Notes under the pieces: model-generated
The model's input: the letters and a program-made list of their open reading frames with translations, nothing else
What the model was told of the DNA's origin: nothing
Databases searched by the model: none
Shown: one piece after another, positions 6,914 to 15,800 of the stretch
Layout: each line of letters begins with the position of its first letter
Numbering within the stretch: position 1 is the stretch's first letter
Origin: a virus
IMG/VR virus record: IMGVR_UViG_3300010885_064439
Span: 1 to 20,119 of that record
DNA length: 20,119 bases
Direction: 5' to 3' (one strand)
Position numbers and translations under genes: made by a program

Positions 6914-8776
6914 ATGTCTTATACCATTACCTATGCAAATGGTGCTAATTCAATCGTTATTGCCGATGGAACGGTAGATAACAGCACAAGTCTCTCACTT
7001 GTGGGTAAAAATTACCCTAATTATGGTCAATATCTTGATCAAAATTTCCTTTACATGTTGCAAAATTTTGCAAGTGGTAGTCAACCAAGCAATCCAATTG
7101 TTGGACAAATTTGGTATAATACTACAAAAGGTGCGCTGCAAGTATATAATGGCGTAATTTTTAAGAATATCGCAAGTGCAACTAATAGTTCTACTGCGCC
7201 AACTAGCAGTGTTGCTGGTGATTTATGGTTTGATAGTGCTAACCAACAACTTAATGTTTACAACGGAACGGGTTGGGTTACTATTGGTCCACTTGGTGGT
7301 GCTGGTCAAGTTGTTAGTGAAAGTATTGTTGATACAGTAGCTGGCAGTCATGATGTTATCAGTATGAAGATTAATAATACTCGTTATGCTATTTTAAGCA
7401 AAGATGCAACATTTACTCCTTCGGTTACAATCAGTGGTTTTAGTACTATCTCACCAGGATTTAATATTGCTTCAACTGCGTTTGTAAGCAACAATAAATT
7501 TGTTGGACAAGCAAGTGATAGTGCAGCACTTAATGGTGTTAGTGGTAGTTCGTTTATGCGTAATGACCAAAATACTGGAACAGTTGGTATTTTGAGTGTT
7601 ACAAATAACAGCGGCATTAATATTGGAACAACAGGACAAGGCGCATTTACTGTTTATAGCAATGAACTTCGTATGGATAATACTCTTAACAATGGTATTA
7701 TTCGTTTAAGAACACGTAACGGCAGTGGTAGTGTAGTTGATGCACTTGATATTCTTGCCAATGCTGACGTTCAAGTTAATGGTAACCTTTTTGTTCTTGG
7801 TAATCTTGACGTTACAACAAGCAATGAAACAAGTATCATATATGGAACTGGTGCAGCTTACAATACAACAAGTGGTGCTTTTCAGGTTGTTGGTGGTGTA
7901 GGTATTGGTGGTAACGTAATTGTTGGTGGACCAAACAACGCATTTACTGGTAACGTTTATGTAGGTAATCTAATTGCTAATGGTAGCAGTAACAATGGTA
8001 ATGTGTATGCAAACTATGTCAATGCTGGAACTATTGGTAATGCTGGTGCTACTCTTTATGGAACACTTAATTTTAATAGCAATTCACAAACAAATATTAC
8101 AACAATTGGAACACTTACTGCTCTTCAAGTAAGTGGTTCGGCTGGTTTTGCAAATGGAACTGTTACTTTTAATCCAACAAGCACCTACAAAGTTATTCTT
8201 GGCAATGTTGGCAACGTTCAAATTGCTGGTGGAAGCAGCGGTCAGGCTCTTATTACCGATGGAAGTAGTAACTTAAATTGGTATACAATTCCAACTCCAG
8301 TGAGCGGTGGCGGAACAGCAGGTCAACTTGCAATTTATACAAGTGCTTCTAACCTAGCCGCTAATAGTAAAGTTACATTTGATAATGCAAACTTGAGTGT
8401 AACTGGTGGTATGCTTGCTACACAAGATATCGTTGCTTACTATTCTGACCAACGACTAAAAACAGATATTGTTGAGATACCAAATGCACTTAATAAAGTT
8501 AAAGCAATTCGTGGTGTTACTTACCGACCAAATGAACTAGCATTTACAATGGGTGTAGGCGACAACAATGAGCATATTGGTGTATTAGCACAAGAAGTTT
8601 CATTGGTTGCTCCACAAGTTATTAAAGCTGCGCCATTTGATATTGCAGAAGATGGAAGTAGCAAGAGCGGTGAAAATTATTTAACTGTTCAATATGACAA
8701 ACTTGTTCCTCTACTAATTGAAGCAATTAAAGAATTAAGTGCAGAGGTAGAGGCATTAAAAGCACGAGGTAGTTAA
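6914..8776 (+). CDS. Tail fibre protein with C-terminal S74 intramolecular chaperone domain
   Basis: This is a 620-residue protein. Residues 1-130 carry two segments of the 'P..GQIWYNTT...LQVYNG' type (about 82-101 and 117-142), a common N-terminal region in phage fibres. The middle is beta-rich, with 'SGAFQVVGGVGIGGNV' at about 321-336. The last 110 residues form a peptidase S74 domain (endosialidase-type chaperone). They contain 'YYSDQRLKTDI' with Ser511-Asp512, 'HIGVLAQEV', 'YLTVQYDKLVPLL' and a closing helix 'EAIKELSAEVEAL'. Members of this family trimerise, help fold the fibre and then cut themselves off at the Ser of the SD motif. Cleavage here would be before Ser511, leaving a mature protein of about 510 residues. 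The S74 assignment is firm; the place in the tail is inferred. Confidence 0.92.
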   Translation: MSYTITYANGANSIVIADGTVDNSTSLSLVGKNYPNYGQYLDQNFLYMLQNFASGSQPSNPIVGQIWYNTTKGALQVYNGVIFKNIASATNSSTAPTSSVAGDLWFDSANQQLNVYNGTGWVTIGPLGGAGQVVSESIVDTVAGSHDVISMKINNTRYAILSKDATFTPSVTISGFSTISPGFNIASTAFVSNNKFVGQASDSAALNGVSGSSFMRNDQNTGTVGILSVTNNSGINIGTTGQGAFTVYSNELRMDNTLNNGIIRLRTRNGSGSVVDALDILANADVQVNGNLFVLGNLDVTTSNETSIIYGTGAAYNTTSGAFQVVGGVGIGGNVIVGGPNNAFTGNVYVGNLIANGSSNNGNVYANYVNAGTIGNAGATLYGTLNFNSNSQTNITTIGTLTALQVSGSAGFANGTVTFNPTSTYKVILGNVGNVQIAGGSSGQALITDGSSNLNWYTIPTPVSGGGTAGQLAIYTSASNLAANSKVTFDNANLSVTGGMLATQDIVAYYSDQRLKTDIVEIPNALNKVKAIRGVTYRPNELAFTMGVGDNNEHIGVLAQEVSLVAPQVIKAAPFDIAEDGSSKSGENYLTVQYDKLVPLLIEAIKELSAEVEALKARGS

Positions 8777-8778
8777 TT

Positions 8779-9426
8779 ATGTCAACACCAGGCGTGCCAG
8801 GCGGTGCACTACCTTTTAGCGGTCCTCTTGATTTAGCTACAATTAATACAGAGTTTGGTTTAGGAACAGACCTTACCCAGTATCATGGCGTGCGATGGTA
8901 TTATGATGGTAATCTTACAACTGGTTTATTTGGTGGTAGCACCATTAAAATAAGCGACTTCTATGGCAAACGTGCAACTGATCCCGCAAGTGCTGGTGCA
9001 TATTTTGCAAATACTGCTGGTAGCGGAACTACTAATTCACCATTATACCGTAATACTATCACTATAGAAATATGGGGTGGTGGCGGAAGTGGTGGCAGTG
9101 GTAACGGCGGTGGTGGTAGTAAAGGCGGTGATAGTAATGTGTTAGGTGTTACTGCAGGTGGTGGCAGTGGTGGTGGTGCGGGTAGTATTCCTGTCCCCCC
9201 TCCACCAGTTGATGTTGCCGTTAATGGGCGTGGTGGAAGAGAACTTGACCAATCTGCTTACCAAGTTGGAAGTTCAACCGTGACTGAATTTAAAGATTCA
9301 AGTGGGCGTGTTGTTGGTCAAGTAACACAAGATACATTGACTGGTCAAGTTCAAGCTACACAGGGACAAACTGGTCCATATGGAACAGATGCCACCAGAC
9401 AAGGTGGCAGTGAGCCAACATATTAA
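8779..9426 (+). CDS. Glycine-rich adhesin-type protein, N-terminal half of a possibly split gene
   Basis: This is a 215-residue protein. The N-terminus 'INTEFGLGTDLTQYHGVRWYY' (about 21-42) followed by 'IKISDFYGKRA' is a known phage adhesin and tail-tip anchor pattern, repeated in the gene at 9803. Residues 92-132 begin a Gly-rich domain ('ITIEIWGGGGSGG'), which then stops abruptly. A Pro/Gln/Thr-rich stretch 'IPVPPPPVDVAVNGRGGRE' and about 60 more hydrophilic residues follow, ending 'GGSEPTY'. That tail is unlike the rest of the cluster. The next gene continues the Gly-rich theme in the same reading frame, with only TAA (9424-9426) and seven codons between. GAGG (8766-8769), inside the end of the previous gene, serves as ribosome site. 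Role inferred: host receptor binding at a fibre tip. Confidence 0.82.
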   Translation: MSTPGVPGGALPFSGPLDLATINTEFGLGTDLTQYHGVRWYYDGNLTTGLFGGSTIKISDFYGKRATDPASAGAYFANTAGSGTTNSPLYRNTITIEIWGGGGSGGSGNGGGGSKGGDSNVLGVTAGGGSGGGAGSIPVPPPPVDVAVNGRGGRELDQSAYQVGSSTVTEFKDSSGRVVGQVTQDTLTGQVQATQGQTGPYGTDATRQGGSEPTY

Positions 9427-9429
9427 ATA
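9422..9429 (+). promoter_or_regulatory. Possible weak late promoter (ATTAAATA)
   Basis: ATTAAATA overlaps the TAA of the 8779-9426 gene and lies 18 bases before the ATG at 9448. That spacing is the same as for the clear late promoters. It departs from the consensus at the first two bases. It would support independent expression of the downstream small Gly-rich protein. Confidence 0.3.
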
Positions 9430-9447
9430 GATATTGGAAATAAAAAA

Positions 9448-9801
9448 ATGTCAAATGGTAATGGCGGCGGCGGCGGAACAATAAATGCAAACCCTAAACC
9501 AAGTATTGCAAACCCTGTTGCCTTTGTTTTTTTAAATGGCAACAATGGTGTAAACGGTTCTACTGCACAAAATAATAGCGCAACTAATGCAAATGTTGGT
9601 TATGGCGGCGGCGGTGCTTCTGCAAGTAGTTCATATGGCAGTGCAACTGGTGGCAGCGGAGGAACAGGTGGGTATGTTAAGATTACATATGGACCTGGTC
9701 AAATACCATACAATACTTTGATAGCATACTCACTCGGAGCAGCTGGAACAGGTGGAGCAACCTCTGGCGGACCTGGTGGAATAAAGATTACTTGGACTTA
9801 A
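9448..9801 (+). CDS. Small glycine-rich adhesin-type protein, possible C-terminal half of a split gene
   Basis: This is a 117-residue protein without the 'INTEF...FYG' anchor of its neighbours. It opens directly into Gly-rich sequence ('NGNGGGGGT') and carries 'GYGGGGASAS' and 'GGTGGYVKITYGPG'. It ends 'GGPGGIKITWT', the usual way such Gly-rich phage adhesin domains finish. It is in the same frame as 8779-9426, separated by one stop. GGAAA (9436-9440) lies 7 bases before ATG and could act as a ribosome site. Three readings fit: a separately made partner that completes the upstream protein's Gly-rich fold, a stop-codon readthrough extension, or the relic of one gene broken by an in-frame insertion. 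Confidence 0.72.
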   Translation: MSNGNGGGGGTINANPKPSIANPVAFVFLNGNNGVNGSTAQNNSATNANVGYGGGGASASSSYGSATGGSGGTGGYVKITYGPGQIPYNTLIAYSLGAAGTGGATSGGPGGIKITWT

Positions 9802-9802
9802 A

Positions 9803-10624
9803 ATGACAATAGGTTTAACTGGTAAACTTGCCCTTAATGCAAATATTAACACTGAATTTCAATTAGGTAATGCTATATCAGCTTATCGTGGTATTCCTTA
9901 TTATAAACCTTCAACCACTACTTTAGGAAATTTTGATACTACAAATTTAAATTTTAGTGAATTTTATGGAACACAAAATAAATCTACTGTAAATATTACA
10001 ATTTCATCTGACACTAAAAATTATACACTTAATCCAGCGGCTGTGACTGGTTATGTATCTGGGTTTACAACTGTAAATCTTACAATAAACAGTGGAATTT
10101 ATGTAGGTAGTAGTTCTACTGGTTCTTATGCTATGACCATAACTGGGTTTACGACTGGTGATGTTATTAATCTTATAAACAATGGTGTTATTATTGGAAC
10201 TGGTGGCAATGGCGGTGATGGCAATGGCGGCGCAGGTGGCAGTGGTAATCCTGGTGGTAATGCACTACTATTACAATGTGCAGTAAACATAACAAACAAT
10301 GGTACTATTGCTGGTGCTGGTGGTGGTGGCGGTGCAACTGATGGCGGTTCAACTTATGGTAGCTGTCTTGGTGGCGGCGGTAGTTTCAATGGAACTGGTG
10401 GTGGTGGTGGTGCTGGTTATGATCCTGGCAGTGGTGGCGCTAATGGCGGTAGTGGTGGAACACGAACTGCTGGCGGTGGTGGCGGAGCCAATGGCGGTAA
10501 TCCTGGTCAAGATGGTGCAACCAGTGGAAACGGTAGAGCAGGTGGAGCCGCTGGTAAATATATTACAAATAAATCCTATGCAACGTTTTTAGTTACGGGA
10601 ACGTTGCTTGGAGGTTATTCTTAA
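9803..10624 (+). CDS. Glycine-rich tail tip adhesin
   Basis: This is a 273-residue protein. The N-terminal anchor 'INTEFQLGNAISAYRGIPYY' with 'LNFSEFYGTQ' repeats that of the 8779 gene. Residues about 72-128 are beta-like, followed by 'LINNGVIIGTGGNGGDG' and 'NITNNGTIAGAGGGGG'. This 'NNGtI.G.GGGGG' pattern is typical of phage receptor-binding tips that form a sandwich of polyglycine helices. About 100 Gly-rich residues follow, then a short closing segment 'YITNKSYATFLVTGTLLGG'. The start is one base after the previous stop (TAAAATG). By analogy with T-even gp38-type adhesins, it probably contacts the host surface. The family resemblance is by motif only. Confidence 0.86.
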   Translation: MTIGLTGKLALNANINTEFQLGNAISAYRGIPYYKPSTTTLGNFDTTNLNFSEFYGTQNKSTVNITISSDTKNYTLNPAAVTGYVSGFTTVNLTINSGIYVGSSSTGSYAMTITGFTTGDVINLINNGVIIGTGGNGGDGNGGAGGSGNPGGNALLLQCAVNITNNGTIAGAGGGGGATDGGSTYGSCLGGGGSFNGTGGGGGAGYDPGSGGANGGSGGTRTAGGGGGANGGNPGQDGATSGNGRAGGAAGKYITNKSYATFLVTGTLLGGYS

Positions 10625-10633
10625 GGAATTAAA

Positions 10634-10996
10634 ATGGATACACTAACTGTAAAAGTTCATGAATATAATGAAGAAAACCATAGCTTGATTGTTAGTTTTA
10701 CAACTGATGCAAGTGATATGAGCGTTGATGAAAGTGAACGTTATAGTTTTGATATTCATAATTATAACCCAAATGATTTAAGCGATGCGCTCGCACAAAT
10801 TGCAAGACAAGGTGCAGTAATTGCGCATCAAAAATATCTTAAAGAACAAAGTAAAAAGAATGAAGAAGTAGTAGCTGCAGCTAAAGCTGAAATTGGTAAA
10901 GTTTATAATTTTCCAATTGGTGATTTAATAAATGTAACAACTTATACATCCCCAAATGGTGATGTTGGAAATATGACAGGCATCACAATTCTATGA
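10634..10996 (+). CDS. Hypothetical small acidic protein, possible fibre/adhesin chaperone
   Basis: This is a 120-residue protein whose ATG lies 6 bases after AAGGA (10623-10627). It begins 'VKVHEYNEENHSLIVSFTTD', has an acidic Asp/Ser/Glu-rich patch and a helix-prone stretch (about 50-90) with 'LSDALAQIARQGAVIAHQKY' and 'KKNEEVVAAAKAEIG', then ends hydrophobic. Its composition (charged, helical) differs sharply from the Gly/Asn-rich fibres. I do not recognise the family with certainty. Its position directly after the adhesin genes would suit a fibre assembly chaperone or a small virion protein. It has no acyl-carrier-protein 'DSL' motif. The stop overlaps the next start (ATGA), so the two are coupled. 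Confidence 0.78.
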   Translation: MDTLTVKVHEYNEENHSLIVSFTTDASDMSVDESERYSFDIHNYNPNDLSDALAQIARQGAVIAHQKYLKEQSKKNEEVVAAAKAEIGKVYNFPIGDLINVTTYTSPNGDVGNMTGITIL

Positions 10997-11586
10997 GTGT
11001 TATTACAGGCAATACAATACATATTGCTAATTTTCCTATGCAACTTGCCAAAGTTACTATGACTCAAGCAGGTGATTCAATCACACAAGATTTTCCATAT
11101 GTTGGTATATCTAAAGAAGAATTTATTTCACGTCATGTTCTTGCAAGTGGTTGGCTCACAATCGACGGTTATCTTAATGGAGAAAACGTAGGCACAGAAC
11201 TACCAGAATCTCCTTACATTTCACGATTACGTTATGGTGTAATCATAACTCCAAGTGGAACATTTAACATTGATAGTTGTGTATCTACTGCAACTGAAGA
11301 TAATACAAGTTTTTATTGTATACATCCTGCTACTCAAAGAGAAATGATTAACAATGCTCTAAACGATGCAGTGCGAGATAAAGTTTGGCGTATACCAAGT
11401 GGACAACCACTTCGTTTAAGAACAGGTAGATATTATTTTTCCAATGTTGATTTAGAAATAAATGGTCAAATACACAAAGCATTTGAACCTATTGCTTGTG
11501 TTTACAGAGAAGCTGATGCAACACCCGCTGTAGATGCTGCTATTGCTGAATTTTGGATCGAAAAAGTTTTTATTTCAAAACAGTAA
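10993..11586 (+). CDS. Hypothetical protein between adhesins and ketosynthase
   Basis: This is a 197-residue soluble protein of mixed composition with no signal peptide or membrane helix. Visible stretches are 'IHIANFPMQLAKVTMTQ', 'DFPYVGISKEEFISRH', 'ISRLRYGVIITPSGTFNID', 'WRIPSGQPLRLRTGRYYF' and a C-terminal helix-like end 'AIAEFWIEKVFIS'. It is not Gly- or Asn-rich like the fibres and shows no enzyme motif I can name. It overlaps the previous gene by four bases (ATGA) and sits 15 bases ahead of the ketosynthase gene. It may be a minor virion or assembly protein, or a partner of the ketosynthase; the sequence does not decide. Confidence 0.78.
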   Translation: MSVITGNTIHIANFPMQLAKVTMTQAGDSITQDFPYVGISKEEFISRHVLASGWLTIDGYLNGENVGTELPESPYISRLRYGVIITPSGTFNIDSCVSTATEDNTSFYCIHPATQREMINNALNDAVRDKVWRIPSGQPLRLRTGRYYFSNVDLEINGQIHKAFEPIACVYREADATPAVDAAIAEFWIEKVFISKQ

Positions 11587-11601
11587 TTCTTAAATATCCA
11601 T

Positions 11602-12804
11602 ATGAAATCAAATATTGTTGTTAGTGGCATGGGTTGTATAACCGCATGTGGCGTTGGGGTTGATGCGTTATGGAATGCAATACTAACAAACACAAGTGGA
11701 ATACATGAGTTTCAACATGATTATCATGTTGGAAATAAAGTAAACATTGCTGCAAAAATTAAAAATTTAAATCATCTTGAACATTTTTCAAGACAAACTC
11801 GTATAGATTTATTTGCTGCATATGCGGCGATAGCTGCACGTGAAGCAATTTCAGAAAGTAAAATTACACAAGAAATTTTAAGTGATAGCAGAACAGGAAT
11901 AGTAATCGGCAATGGTTTACCTGGTGCAGAATCAATATGCAACATAATAACCAGATTAGTAGAAAAATCTAACAAAAAAGATATTTTTACTGTTCCAAAA
12001 GCAATGACAAATGCAGCTATAAGTTACATTTGTATTGAAAATAAAATCTATGGTCCAAGTTATCCAATTGGTTCAGGTTGTGCCGCTGGCAATCAAGCAA
12101 TTGGTTTAGCATTTCAACTTATACGTGCAGGTATAATTGATCGTGCAATCGTTGGTGGAACAGAGGCAACTATTCAACCATATGTTATGCGAGCATGGGA
12201 ATATATGAATGCATTAAGTTTAACTGGTAGTAGACCATTTACTGCTGATAGAGATGGTGTAGTTCTTGGCGAAGGTGCTGGCATTTTAGTAATTGAAAAA
12301 GAAGAAGATGTGTTATCAAGAGGTGTAAAACCACATGGACGTATTCTTGGACACTCAAATACAAACGATGCTTTTCATTTACTTCAACCTGATAATATAG
12401 GATTGGTTAAAGCAATGCAAGGTGCAGTTGAGGATTCTGGTTTAAGTTTTGTTGATATTGATTATGTAAATGCACATGGTACTGGCACTGAACTAAATGA
12501 TAAAAATGAAATATCTGGTCTGCGTAAGGTATTTGGTTCACACGCTGATTCACTACCAATATCTTCTACTAAACCAATACATGGACATATGATAGCTGCA
12601 ACTGGTGCAGTTGAGACAATTATCACAATTAAAGCTATGCAAAACAGTTTTGCACCGCCTACTATAAACTTTACAAATCCAGACCCAGAATGTGATATGG
12701 ATGTAATTCCAAATGTTGGTCGTAAAATGAATATCAATTATGCTTTGACAAGTAATTTTGCATTTGGTGGAATTAACTCCTCGTTGGTTCTTGGCAAATA
12801 CTGA
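11602..12804 (+). CDS. Beta-ketoacyl-ACP synthase (FabF/KAS II-like condensing enzyme)
   Basis: This 400-residue protein aligns along its whole length with the FabF/FabB family, which condenses acyl groups with malonyl-ACP to extend fatty acids. The N-terminus 'NIVVSGMGCITACGVG' matches the family start. Cys160 in 'GSGCAAGNQAIG' is the nucleophile, and 'SRPFTADRDGVVLGEGAG' (210-227) is canonical. His292 in 'NAHGTGTELND' and His329 in 'STKPIHGHMIAATGAVE' complete the triad, with Lys324 also kept. 'SNFAFGGINSSLVL' closes the fold. E. coli FabF is 413 residues with C163, H303 and H340. Small departures are Gly instead of Ala before the Cys, and AFGG for GFGG. No Shine-Dalgarno sequence precedes the ATG. 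Base composition matches its neighbours. No ACP, malonyl transferase or reductase gene is in the window, so it would rely on host ACP. Confidence 0.95.
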   Translation: MKSNIVVSGMGCITACGVGVDALWNAILTNTSGIHEFQHDYHVGNKVNIAAKIKNLNHLEHFSRQTRIDLFAAYAAIAAREAISESKITQEILSDSRTGIVIGNGLPGAESICNIITRLVEKSNKKDIFTVPKAMTNAAISYICIENKIYGPSYPIGSGCAAGNQAIGLAFQLIRAGIIDRAIVGGTEATIQPYVMRAWEYMNALSLTGSRPFTADRDGVVLGEGAGILVIEKEEDVLSRGVKPHGRILGHSNTNDAFHLLQPDNIGLVKAMQGAVEDSGLSFVDIDYVNAHGTGTELNDKNEISGLRKVFGSHADSLPISSTKPIHGHMIAATGAVETIITIKAMQNSFAPPTINFTNPDPECDMDVIPNVGRKMNINYALTSNFAFGGINSSLVLGKY

Positions 12805-12825
12805 CCTTTAAAATATAAAATCTCC

Positions 12826-12833
12826 TATAAATA
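12826..12833 (+). promoter_or_regulatory. T4-type late promoter box (TATAAATA)
   Basis: This exact consensus lies in the gap after the ketosynthase gene, 19 bases before the ATG at 12853. It starts a new unit covering the 1257-residue fibre and the 16651-17214 gene. Confidence 0.85.
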
Positions 12834-12840
12834 TAGTTGC

Positions 12841-12845
12841 GGGAG
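12841..12845 (+). promoter_or_regulatory. Ribosome binding site GGGAG that fixes the start at ATG 12853
   Basis: GGGAG ends 7 bases before ATG 12853, an ideal distance. A TTG codon directly upstream (12850) is in frame but would sit only 4 bases from the site, so the ATG is preferred. Confidence 0.75.
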
Positions 12846-12852
12846 TTTTTTG

Positions 12853-15800
12853 ATGACAACGTATGCTTTAACAAGGATTCGTAACAACCAAGTATATAAT
12901 AGCGATATCTATGCTGATGCAAAAGTTGTAGCAAAGTCAATAAGTGGTGGTTTATTAAGCGATAATTTTACATATGTTGGTAATATGACCATTGGAAACC
13001 TAACGGTTAATGGTAATACAACCACTCTTGATACTACAAATCTTGTTATTGCTGATCCAATGTTTAGCATTAATCGTAATGCTACTGGTGCGCCTTCGTT
13101 TGATCTTGGTATTGTTATGGGTCGTGGTAGTGCTACAAACGTAGCATTTATCTGGGAAGAAAGTTCACAACAATTTCAATTACAATATACAACACAAAGC
13201 ACAAGTGCAACTACTTTTGGTGTAATTAATAATAGTGGTTATGCTAACTTGCAAGCATATGGTGGTAAATTTAATAATACCACAATTACAACAAGCACAG
13301 TAACAAATGATATTGTAGCAAATACCAAGATTTCTGGTGGAACAATTGATAATACTGCAATTGGTGCATTTAATCCTAATACTGGTGTTTTCACAACAGT
13401 TGTAACACAAAGCAATCTTTACAGTGGCGGTAATCTTGTTGTTGCAAGCTCAACTGGTTTAAGTGGCATAAGCACTACTGTTGGTGCATTAGTTGTCAGC
13501 GGTGGTGCTGCAATTGGTGACGGTTTAAATACAAGTGGAACCGCTCAATTTGGTGTTGGTAGCGCTAATTATGTACAAATAGTTGGAACTGGCGCAGGCG
13601 GATACGGTGTTATAAGAGCAGGTGGTGAAGCTACAAATGGTTTAATTATAGCTGGTGGTGGAACTGGTAATATTGTATTCAATGCCGCTGGTAGCGCAAC
13701 TGTTGATACTGCTACAAATTTTAAAGTTTACAATGCAGTTCAATCAGGCAATCCAAACTATTTGATAGTAAGTGGTGCAGCAGCAGGCAGTAGTCCTGTA
13801 TTAGCATCTGGTGGAACTGATACTAACAGCAGTATTAACATAAGTCCAAAAGGAACTGGTAATGTTCTTATTACATCCACAACTTCAGCAACTTCACAAA
13901 CAACTGGATCAACTGTTATCAAGGGTGGTCTTGGTGTTGCTGGCGACATTTATGGTAATATATTCAATGGAAGCACAGTTTATGCTGGCACGATTGGTAA
14001 TACTGGTGCTGTATTCAGTGGTGCTACAAGCACACTGACTGGTGCAAGTCAAGCAGCAAGTTTCACAACAAGTGGTGGTGGACAACATATTGGTTATATA
14101 ACTGGTGCTATTGGTGCAAACACACCTAATACTGGTGCATTTACGACAGTTACAACAAGCGGCGCTATTACTGCTCAAGGAACAATAAGTGCTCCATCTA
14201 TAAATGCTGGTACTATTGGTAACACTGGTGCCGCACTTACTGCATCAACTGCAACCCTAACAGGCACAGCAAACTCTTATGGCGCTGGTCAAGGTGCTCT
14301 CCAAATTACTGGTGGTTTCTATGCTGGTGGTGATTCTTATATTAACGGCAACTTATCAATAGCAGGTAATCTTACATCTATTGGATATAATGAACTTATC
14401 GCTAATGCTCCGCTGCTGTATCTATCAGTGGGTAGTATTTCAACTTATAACTATGAATTAGGTTTTTATAGTCACAAATATGATGCGGCGGTAGGTTATA
14501 ACCATACTGGTCTTGTAAGAAACCATCTTGATAATGCCTGGTATTTGTTTAGCAATATTCGTACAGAACCGACTAATACAGTTGATCTTGCAAACGCAAG
14601 CATAATTTACGACACATTAAAACTTGGCAATGTTATTGCTTTAAGTGGTAATGCTTCTACTTCTACTACAACGGGTGCTATTGTTGTAAGTGACGGTGGT
14701 GGTCTTGGTGTTGGTGGTAACATTTACGCTGCCGCAATTCAAAACACTCCAATTGGTAACGGAACTGCATCTACGGGTGCATTTACTACACTTACAACAA
14801 GCAGCACAATCACATCACAAGGAACTATCACTGGTGCTGGACAGATCATTGGTTATCTTACTGGTGCAATTGGTGCTAACGTTCCAAATACTGGCGTATT
14901 TACAAGTCTCGTAACTACAACAAGTGGTGGAAATGGCAATGTTTATATTGGCGGTAACCTAATTGTTACTGGAAACATTAATGCTATTACCGCAAATATT
15001 TATACACAAGGCGGTATATTCTATGGTGCCGCAACTACTGGATTTAATGCACTATATGCTGGTCAAACTGGTTACACGCCACTTGCACAAACACTTGTCC
15101 AAGTTAGTGGTAATTATAACGGCTTTGTTCAATTAAATCAACAGAATACAAATAACGGTTCAAGCGCAAGCACAGACTATATTGCAACAGCAAATAATGG
15201 TAGCGATCAAGACACTTATATTGATATGGGTATCAATAGTAGTGGTTATGTAAATGCTACATATGGGTTGCAAGCTGCAAATGATGGATATCTTTATGTT
15301 GCTGGTAATACAACGACAGGCGGTGGTAACCTTGTAGTTTCTACTACTACTGCAAACGATATTATATTCTCACTTGGTGGTATTGCCACTGCAAATGAGT
15401 TCGCTCGTATGAGAGCAAATACAAACAGTTTTGTTATTAGCAGCACAACTGCAAGCACAACTACTAACACGGGTGCAATGCAAGTTCGTGGTGGTGTTGG
15501 TATCACTGGTGATTTAAATGTTGGTGGTAATATTAATGGCACTACAGCAAAGAATGTTCCAACAATTTATGCAAGTAACATTTACCCATACGCTAATGCG
15601 GGTAATATTAATCTATACACTCAACTTAACACCAATCTAACGGTTAATAGCAATCAACTTGTTGCAAATCTTATTGTTCATGGTAATGGTGCAGCGGGTT
15701 ATCAAAATCTTCTTGTAACTAATGGCGCAACTGGACAAGTTGGTATTAAAATAAACCCAAGTAGTATGACTGGTAATGCCAGTTTTATTATTAACTCTAC

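Follow-up and report, generated by a model that had tools for sequence, protein, structure and literature searches.

Jumbo phages of the T4 superfamily carry, at the end of a tail-fibre operon, the gene of a complete beta-ketoacyl-ACP synthase (KS) that, judged by its sequence, belongs to a specialised-lipid lineage of Alphaproteobacteria whose members are paired with their own acyl carrier protein (ACP). The gene was found in the window, which is the whole 20,119-base stretch of the virus record IMGVR_UViG_3300010885_064439 analysed here. We see an even chance that the phages carry it as late cargo and that it is an active, elongating KS, which would use a carrier of the host and alter acyl chains during assembly. 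To our knowledge, little is known about phage control of host lipids beyond scattered virome annotations.

The KS gene is a resident of a jumbo-phage group

Counterparts of the KS with 72-96% identity occur in eight more IMG/VR contigs, and the gene order is the same in all nine contigs: S74 fibre, adhesins, A3, A2, KS, and giant fibre (Table 1). A sequence-only reading of the window had placed the KS between adhesin genes and a giant fibre gene on the same strand. This is correct, with the two small genes A3 and A2 also lying in between. The adhesin-like genes at window positions 8779-9801 have C-termini that vary highly among otherwise similar contigs (200-385 aa), as would be expected of receptor-binding tips. 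Resemblances among the tail genes point, as a first guess, to alphaproteobacterial hosts such as Caulobacter or Brevundimonas.

Table 1. Features of the tail-fibre operon in the window.
Feature	Position	Strand	Remarks
Long tail fibre with S74 intramolecular chaperone	6914..8776	+	basis of the host-phage tree
gp38-like tail-fibre adhesin, glycine-rich	9803..10624	+	
A3, 120 aa	10634..10996	+	99 N-terminal residues conserved with or without KS; C-terminal tail differs
A2, 197 aa, all-beta, cupin-like	10993..11586	+	
TTAAATA, T4-type late-promoter motif of KS	11590..11596	+	5-nt gap to the KS ATG
Beta-ketoacyl-ACP synthase (KS), 400 aa	11602..12804	+	KS domains, catalytic residues, synteny in 8 other phage contigs
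Intergenic stretch, right edge of the cassette	12805..12849	+	
TATAAATA, late-promoter motif of the downstream fibre gene	12826..12833	+	followed by a GGGAG ribosome-binding site
Giant fibre-like protein, 1,258 aa	12850..16626	+	ATG at 12853 a better start than the TTG at 12850

A metagenomic contig with a bacterial-type metabolic gene in a structural operon raises the question of whether the locus is an assembly chimera or a host gene captured recently. Several findings speak against both. The junctions recur in nine contigs, and the KS DNA is identical in two of them (L004 and L005) that come from two different metagenomes. The pairwise dN/dS among the phage copies is 0.07-0.26; in other words, the KS is under purifying selection. 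Its GC3 (0.150) falls within the range of neighbouring phage genes (0.13-0.19) and far from that of its bacterial kin (0.60-0.70). Finally, in the tree the phage copies form an old clade on a long, phage-only stem, unlike a recent host copy without phage relatives. The shared locus, the dN/dS, and the phage-like GC3 together exclude chimerism and recent copying from a host, with next to no probability left for either.

A complete relative, G003, is 338,435 bp long with ends identical over 123 bp. It encodes homologues of T4 gp17, gp18, gp20, gp21, and gp23, together with a DNA polymerase of family B, one tmRNA, and about two dozen tRNAs, a gene content that identifies it as a T4-superfamily jumbo phage. 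The tmRNA gene lies near the end of the contig (L018:330-694) and is marked by an ARAGORN asterisk (permuted type), with the tag ANDNAPVEMRLAA. Two other regions of G003, 42-51 kb and 199-209 kb (L019, L020, L027, L028), hold sugar-nucleotide epimerase, GDP-mannose dehydratase, C-methyltransferase, and radical-SAM/SPASM genes, possibly a glycan-modification set.

An intact active site behind an altered docking face

The earlier claim of a complete, full-length condensing enzyme held exactly: the open reading frame encodes both KS domains (Pfam ketoacyl-synt, 5e-38 for the N domain and 4e-30 for the C domain), which with the Cys-His-His triad and the lysine place it in the elongating KS superfamily. 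Cys160 (the nucleophile), His292, Lys324, and His329 stand where they were first read and are unchanged in the nine phage copies. Solved FabF structures align with the protein end to end (1.5e-81). The description as FabF-like was right as to the full KS domains, but FabF itself is too specific a name. The NCBIfam fabF model (TIGR03150) gives 375 bits, which is under its equivalog cut-off of 493.75, so the protein is FabF-like and not FabF proper.

The phage KS and FabF (KAS II) are both full-length two-domain enzymes with a C-H-H plus K site and a Phe gate, and they are 33-38% identical across their whole length. The FabF gating residues Asp265, Phe400, and Asn404, whose roles have been described (PMC7138838), are retained as Asp256, Phe388, and Asn392. 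However, the gating loop around Phe388 reads AFGG in the phage KS and its bacterial lineage and GFGG in FabF, and the phage KS is without the insertion that FabF has before the RPF motif. The ACP-docking residues differ as well. At the positions of FabF Arg127, Lys128, and Arg206, the phage group to which the window belongs (group A) has N/H, K/S/T, and N/G, respectively, and the second docking site (FabF Lys65/Lys69) carries a 2-residue deletion. The basic residues equivalent to Arg127/Lys128 and Arg206 are retained by the bacterial kin and by a second group of phage KSs (group B), whereas they are lost or variable in group A. Because the catalytic and gating residues are kept and the docking residues are altered, the carrier of the enzyme is uncertain, and group A KSs may not use a standard ACP. 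An AlphaFold model built from nine near-identical sequences reached a pLDDT of 35, and therefore no structural claim is based on it.

Could the protein instead be a decoy or a structural protein that sequesters host ACP, or that acts by its fold without catalysis? The phage has no other pathway gene, and the docking residues are altered, both of which suit such a role. However, purifying selection has left the catalytic and gating residues unchanged, and an ACP trap would be expected to keep the docking patch, not the active site. Sequestration of ACP, one of the roles first proposed, is thus very unlikely. An altered or relaxed carrier preference would fit the kept active site and the changed docking face better than a trap.

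A lineage paired with its own ACP

An IQ-TREE tree of 55 KSs places the phage copies inside an alphaproteobacterial clade (L076, L168, L169, L176) with a support of 100/100. This clade is split from FabF references with a support of 100/99, and the phage KS falls outside housekeeping FabF in both trees that were built. Across 297 genomes from the order to which L076 belongs, housekeeping-type FabFs score about 245-255 bits and specialised paralogues up to 386. The KS of L076 is 45% identical to the phage KS, and the ACP-paired KSs of Alphaproteobacteria (G009/L076, G051, G079, G100) are 42-45% identical to it and share its AFGG loop and the motifs AHGTGTxLND and STKPIHGH.

The gene neighbourhoods are different. 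In the bacterial kin, an ACP gene lies directly upstream of the KS, often with a MaoC/HadB dehydratase, and some clusters add reductase, GNAT, and serine palmitoyltransferase (SPT)-like genes. In contrast, the phage KS stands alone in a tail operon behind a late-promoter motif. It had been claimed that no other fatty-acid gene is nearby, and this is true of the window. No ACP (PF00550) was found in the window or in any KS-positive contig searched, neither ACP nor MaoC (PF01575) was found in G003, and no SPT was found in the KS-positive phages. A PF00155 match in G003 is weak and partial and lies beside sugar genes.

The bacterial neighbourhoods suggest one specific service. The phage KS could work for a sphingolipid-type (SPT) pathway of the host with the dedicated ACP of that host, giving more or different long-chain bases and ceramides; the outer membrane would then be altered in a way that serves assembly or lysis or keeps rival phages out. 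The pairing of the closest bacterial KSs with ACP, the SPT-like, ketodihydrosphingosine-reductase (KdsR)-like, and HadB/MaoC genes beside several of them, which give the clusters a sphingolipid-type appearance, and the AFGG loop common to the lineage all favour it. However, the SPT-like matches (NF047599, 456-458 bits against a cut-off of 500) and the KdsR matches score under the NCBIfam cut-offs, and L076 and L178 show no SPT beside the KS within the stretch read. The phages bring no SPT, ACP, or MaoC of their own, and the ACP-docking face of group A is altered. We consider this service unlikely, though not far-fetched.

Nodulation KSs offer a further comparison. The plasmid matches nearest to the phage KS are NodE-type KSs. 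NodE/HsnB, the rhizobial nodulation KS, is 37-38% identical to the phage KS, and neither has the FabF insertion. NodE is likewise a lone specialised KS, but it has a dedicated ACP, NodF, whereas the phage KS is on a different branch and its phage is without an ACP. KS matches in a "phages" collection (29-38% identity) were mostly unannotated or unverified and were judged likely bacterial contamination; they served solely as FabF references.

A phage-borne KS as such has precedent. The genes fabF, fabG, and acpP have been reported in Rhodobacteraceae prophages (PMC8224337), and fabF, fabG, and fabZ in deep-sea viromes (PMC10653327). In the prophages, the genes make up a host-like fabG-acpP-fabF set, unlike the lone non-FabF KS described here, which has a late-promoter motif, occurs in a T4-type jumbo phage, and is shared by nine contigs. 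A literature search on FabF in jumbo phages found nothing, and no description was found in the literature searched of this KS lineage, of a late leaderless tail-operon cassette, of repeated acquisitions, or of the P22-like family described below.

KS and A2 form an exchangeable cassette

Seven sister contigs (L059-L065) have the same operon without the KS. Where such a contig extends into the fibre gene, a counterpart of A2 is followed by about 40 nt and then by that gene with the same late-promoter and ribosome-binding block; the contigs L059 and L060 stop inside A2 or immediately past it. Among the KS-positive contigs, the A2 proteins are 67-98% identical, but they are only about 28% identical to their counterparts in the KS-negative ones. 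A3 changes between the two kinds of contig mainly at its C-terminal tail, and the left edge of the exchanged segment lies at about 10919-10993. In the tree of the S74 fibre, the KS-positive phages are not monophyletic, as the KS-positive L008 groups with the KS-negative L061 and L062 (100/99; AU p 4e-95). The strict co-segregation of the A2 type with KS on such a tree indicates that A2 and KS travel together or were co-lost. By these comparisons, A2-KS is a recombining cassette at the end of the operon. The KS also has the marks of a cargo (moron) gene, being present or absent between collinear relatives and having its own late-promoter motif.

What A2 does is less clear. Its predicted fold is all-beta and cupin-like (pLDDT 86). 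The closest structural matches are uncharacterised phage proteins (TM 0.65-0.70), and bicupins match weakly; the PDB matches are cupins with a TM of at most 0.5, and below 0.5 in most. A metal-dependent cupin enzyme was considered and rejected because of these scores and because no HxH motif is conserved, and a structural role is therefore equally likely. A predicted-structure relative of A2 occurs in Prochlorococcus phages P-HM1 and P-HM2 and in uncultured phages. Neither A2 nor A3 has sequence relatives among deposited phages.

A late promoter and a predicted leaderless message

The gene had been described as late, and the T4-type late-promoter motif directly upstream of it agrees. The arrangement TTAAATA-N5-ATG precedes all group A copies of the KS, with no Shine-Dalgarno (SD) sequence. 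Further evidence comes from G003 (L018-L034), whose genes include one for a late sigma factor of the gp55 type (1e-78). In this genome, the spacing between TAAATA and the start codon has a bimodal distribution, being 4-7 nt in 30 ORFs and 13-28 nt in 44. The short class (30 of 358 ORFs) far exceeds the 3.5 expected from shuffles, whose maximum was 10, and an SD sequence is present in 3% of it versus 77% of the 13-28 nt leader class. The short class thus has the appearance of leaderless late mRNAs. It includes the gp17-like terminase gene. In the T4 late block, the distance is 9-73 nt, mostly 24-28, with an SD sequence, and a leaderless class was not seen. If the geometry is that of T4 promoters, the KS message would begin right at its AUG. 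Thus, the motif and the sigma factor support the late-promoter assignment, and the KS mRNA is predicted to be leaderless.

Other phage lineages with KS-fold enzymes

Group B KSs (L208, L209, L211, L220, L225) are 45-49% identical to the window KS and form its sister clade (95/89) inside the alphaproteobacterial 100/100 clade. Their genes adjoin glycosyltransferase, RNR, or glutaredoxin genes outside tail operons, and the late-promoter motif is absent upstream of them. Group C KSs, such as that of the 221-kb T4-like G315, are about 37% identical and nest with Rhodobacteraceae KSs, and their separate acquisition is supported by an AU test (p 0.0002). The T4-like group with an independently acquired KS comprises L207, L212-L214, L216, L221, L222, L226, and G315, and its KS adjoins dCMP deaminase, methyltransferase, and NTP-transferase genes. 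A PF00155 match in G315 was considered as a sign of a phage-borne sphingolipid pathway and rejected, as the protein is a 5-aminolevulinate synthase (559 bits). This phage 5-aminolevulinate synthase, above cut-off, lies at L290:12945-14141 (G315 172945-174141).

A more distant KS-like family, phrog_35856 (about 370 aa), is found in MW202545 and 51 IMG/VR contigs (n=52, P22-like; loci L072:14623-15723 and L229-L279). Its Cys, His, Lys, and His residues are invariant in all members that cover those positions. The gene sits in the virion block, in a conserved order between a tail-stabilisation gene and ejection-type genes.

Such placements bring up a role in the virion itself, in which KS and the co-inherited A2 would make an acyl group or transfer it onto a tail or adhesin protein. 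In its favour are the co-segregation with A2, which a purely metabolic role leaves unexplained, the predicted late, leaderless expression inside the tail operon, the remodelled docking face, and the P22-like family. However, no acyltransferase partner was found, the KSs of groups B and C are away from tail genes, A2 resembles bicupins only weakly, and the A2-KS linkage may merely mark recombination breakpoints. We regard this role as improbable. Equally improbable is a broader version, according to which several phage lineages independently took KS-fold enzymes into late or virion blocks (the A2-KS cassette and the P22-like family) to acylate a virion or envelope component, with carrier recognition rewired and the KS serving assembly or entry and not host fatty-acid synthesis.

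A proposed late-acting cargo enzyme and its significance

Since groups B and C hold their KSs elsewhere, the tail position of the group A gene is not proof of a tail function; it probably reflects late timing and recombination. The earlier suggestion was that the enzyme may act during virion assembly. The late motif and the common location in related phages agree with this timing, but confinement to assembly, although possible, is not required because sister operons lack the KS and group B KSs lie outside the tail region.

The reading that we prefer, a late-acting elongating enzyme, can be put as follows. A mobile cargo gene would encode a catalytically competent KS of the alphaproteobacterial ACP-paired lineage and would ride in the exchangeable cassette at the end of the tail-fibre operon. 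Its own gp55-type promoter would switch it on late, as a leaderless mRNA. The enzyme would then condense acyl chains with malonyl units on a carrier protein of the host, and the length or type of acyl chains in the membrane, lipid A, or sphingolipid-like lipids would change during virion assembly. We infer that the KS is active, draws on a carrier of the host, and affects host lipids. The product of a lone KS is a 3-ketoacyl chain, which needs a reductase and a dehydratase, here those of the host.

The KS can be traced to a bacterial lineage, its active site is intact, and it is conserved in a group of jumbo phages, borne on a cassette, and late-timed by its motif. Other T4-like phages have acquired a KS independently at least once more, and many P22-like phages carry a distant KS-like family. 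That unrelated phages also carry such enzymes suggests that phages repeatedly take control of host fatty chains. The leaderless late-promoter class in turn bears on late-gene translation in these phages. Whether a single condensing enzyme reshapes lipids in infection or is part of virion assembly is a question that can now be approached directly.
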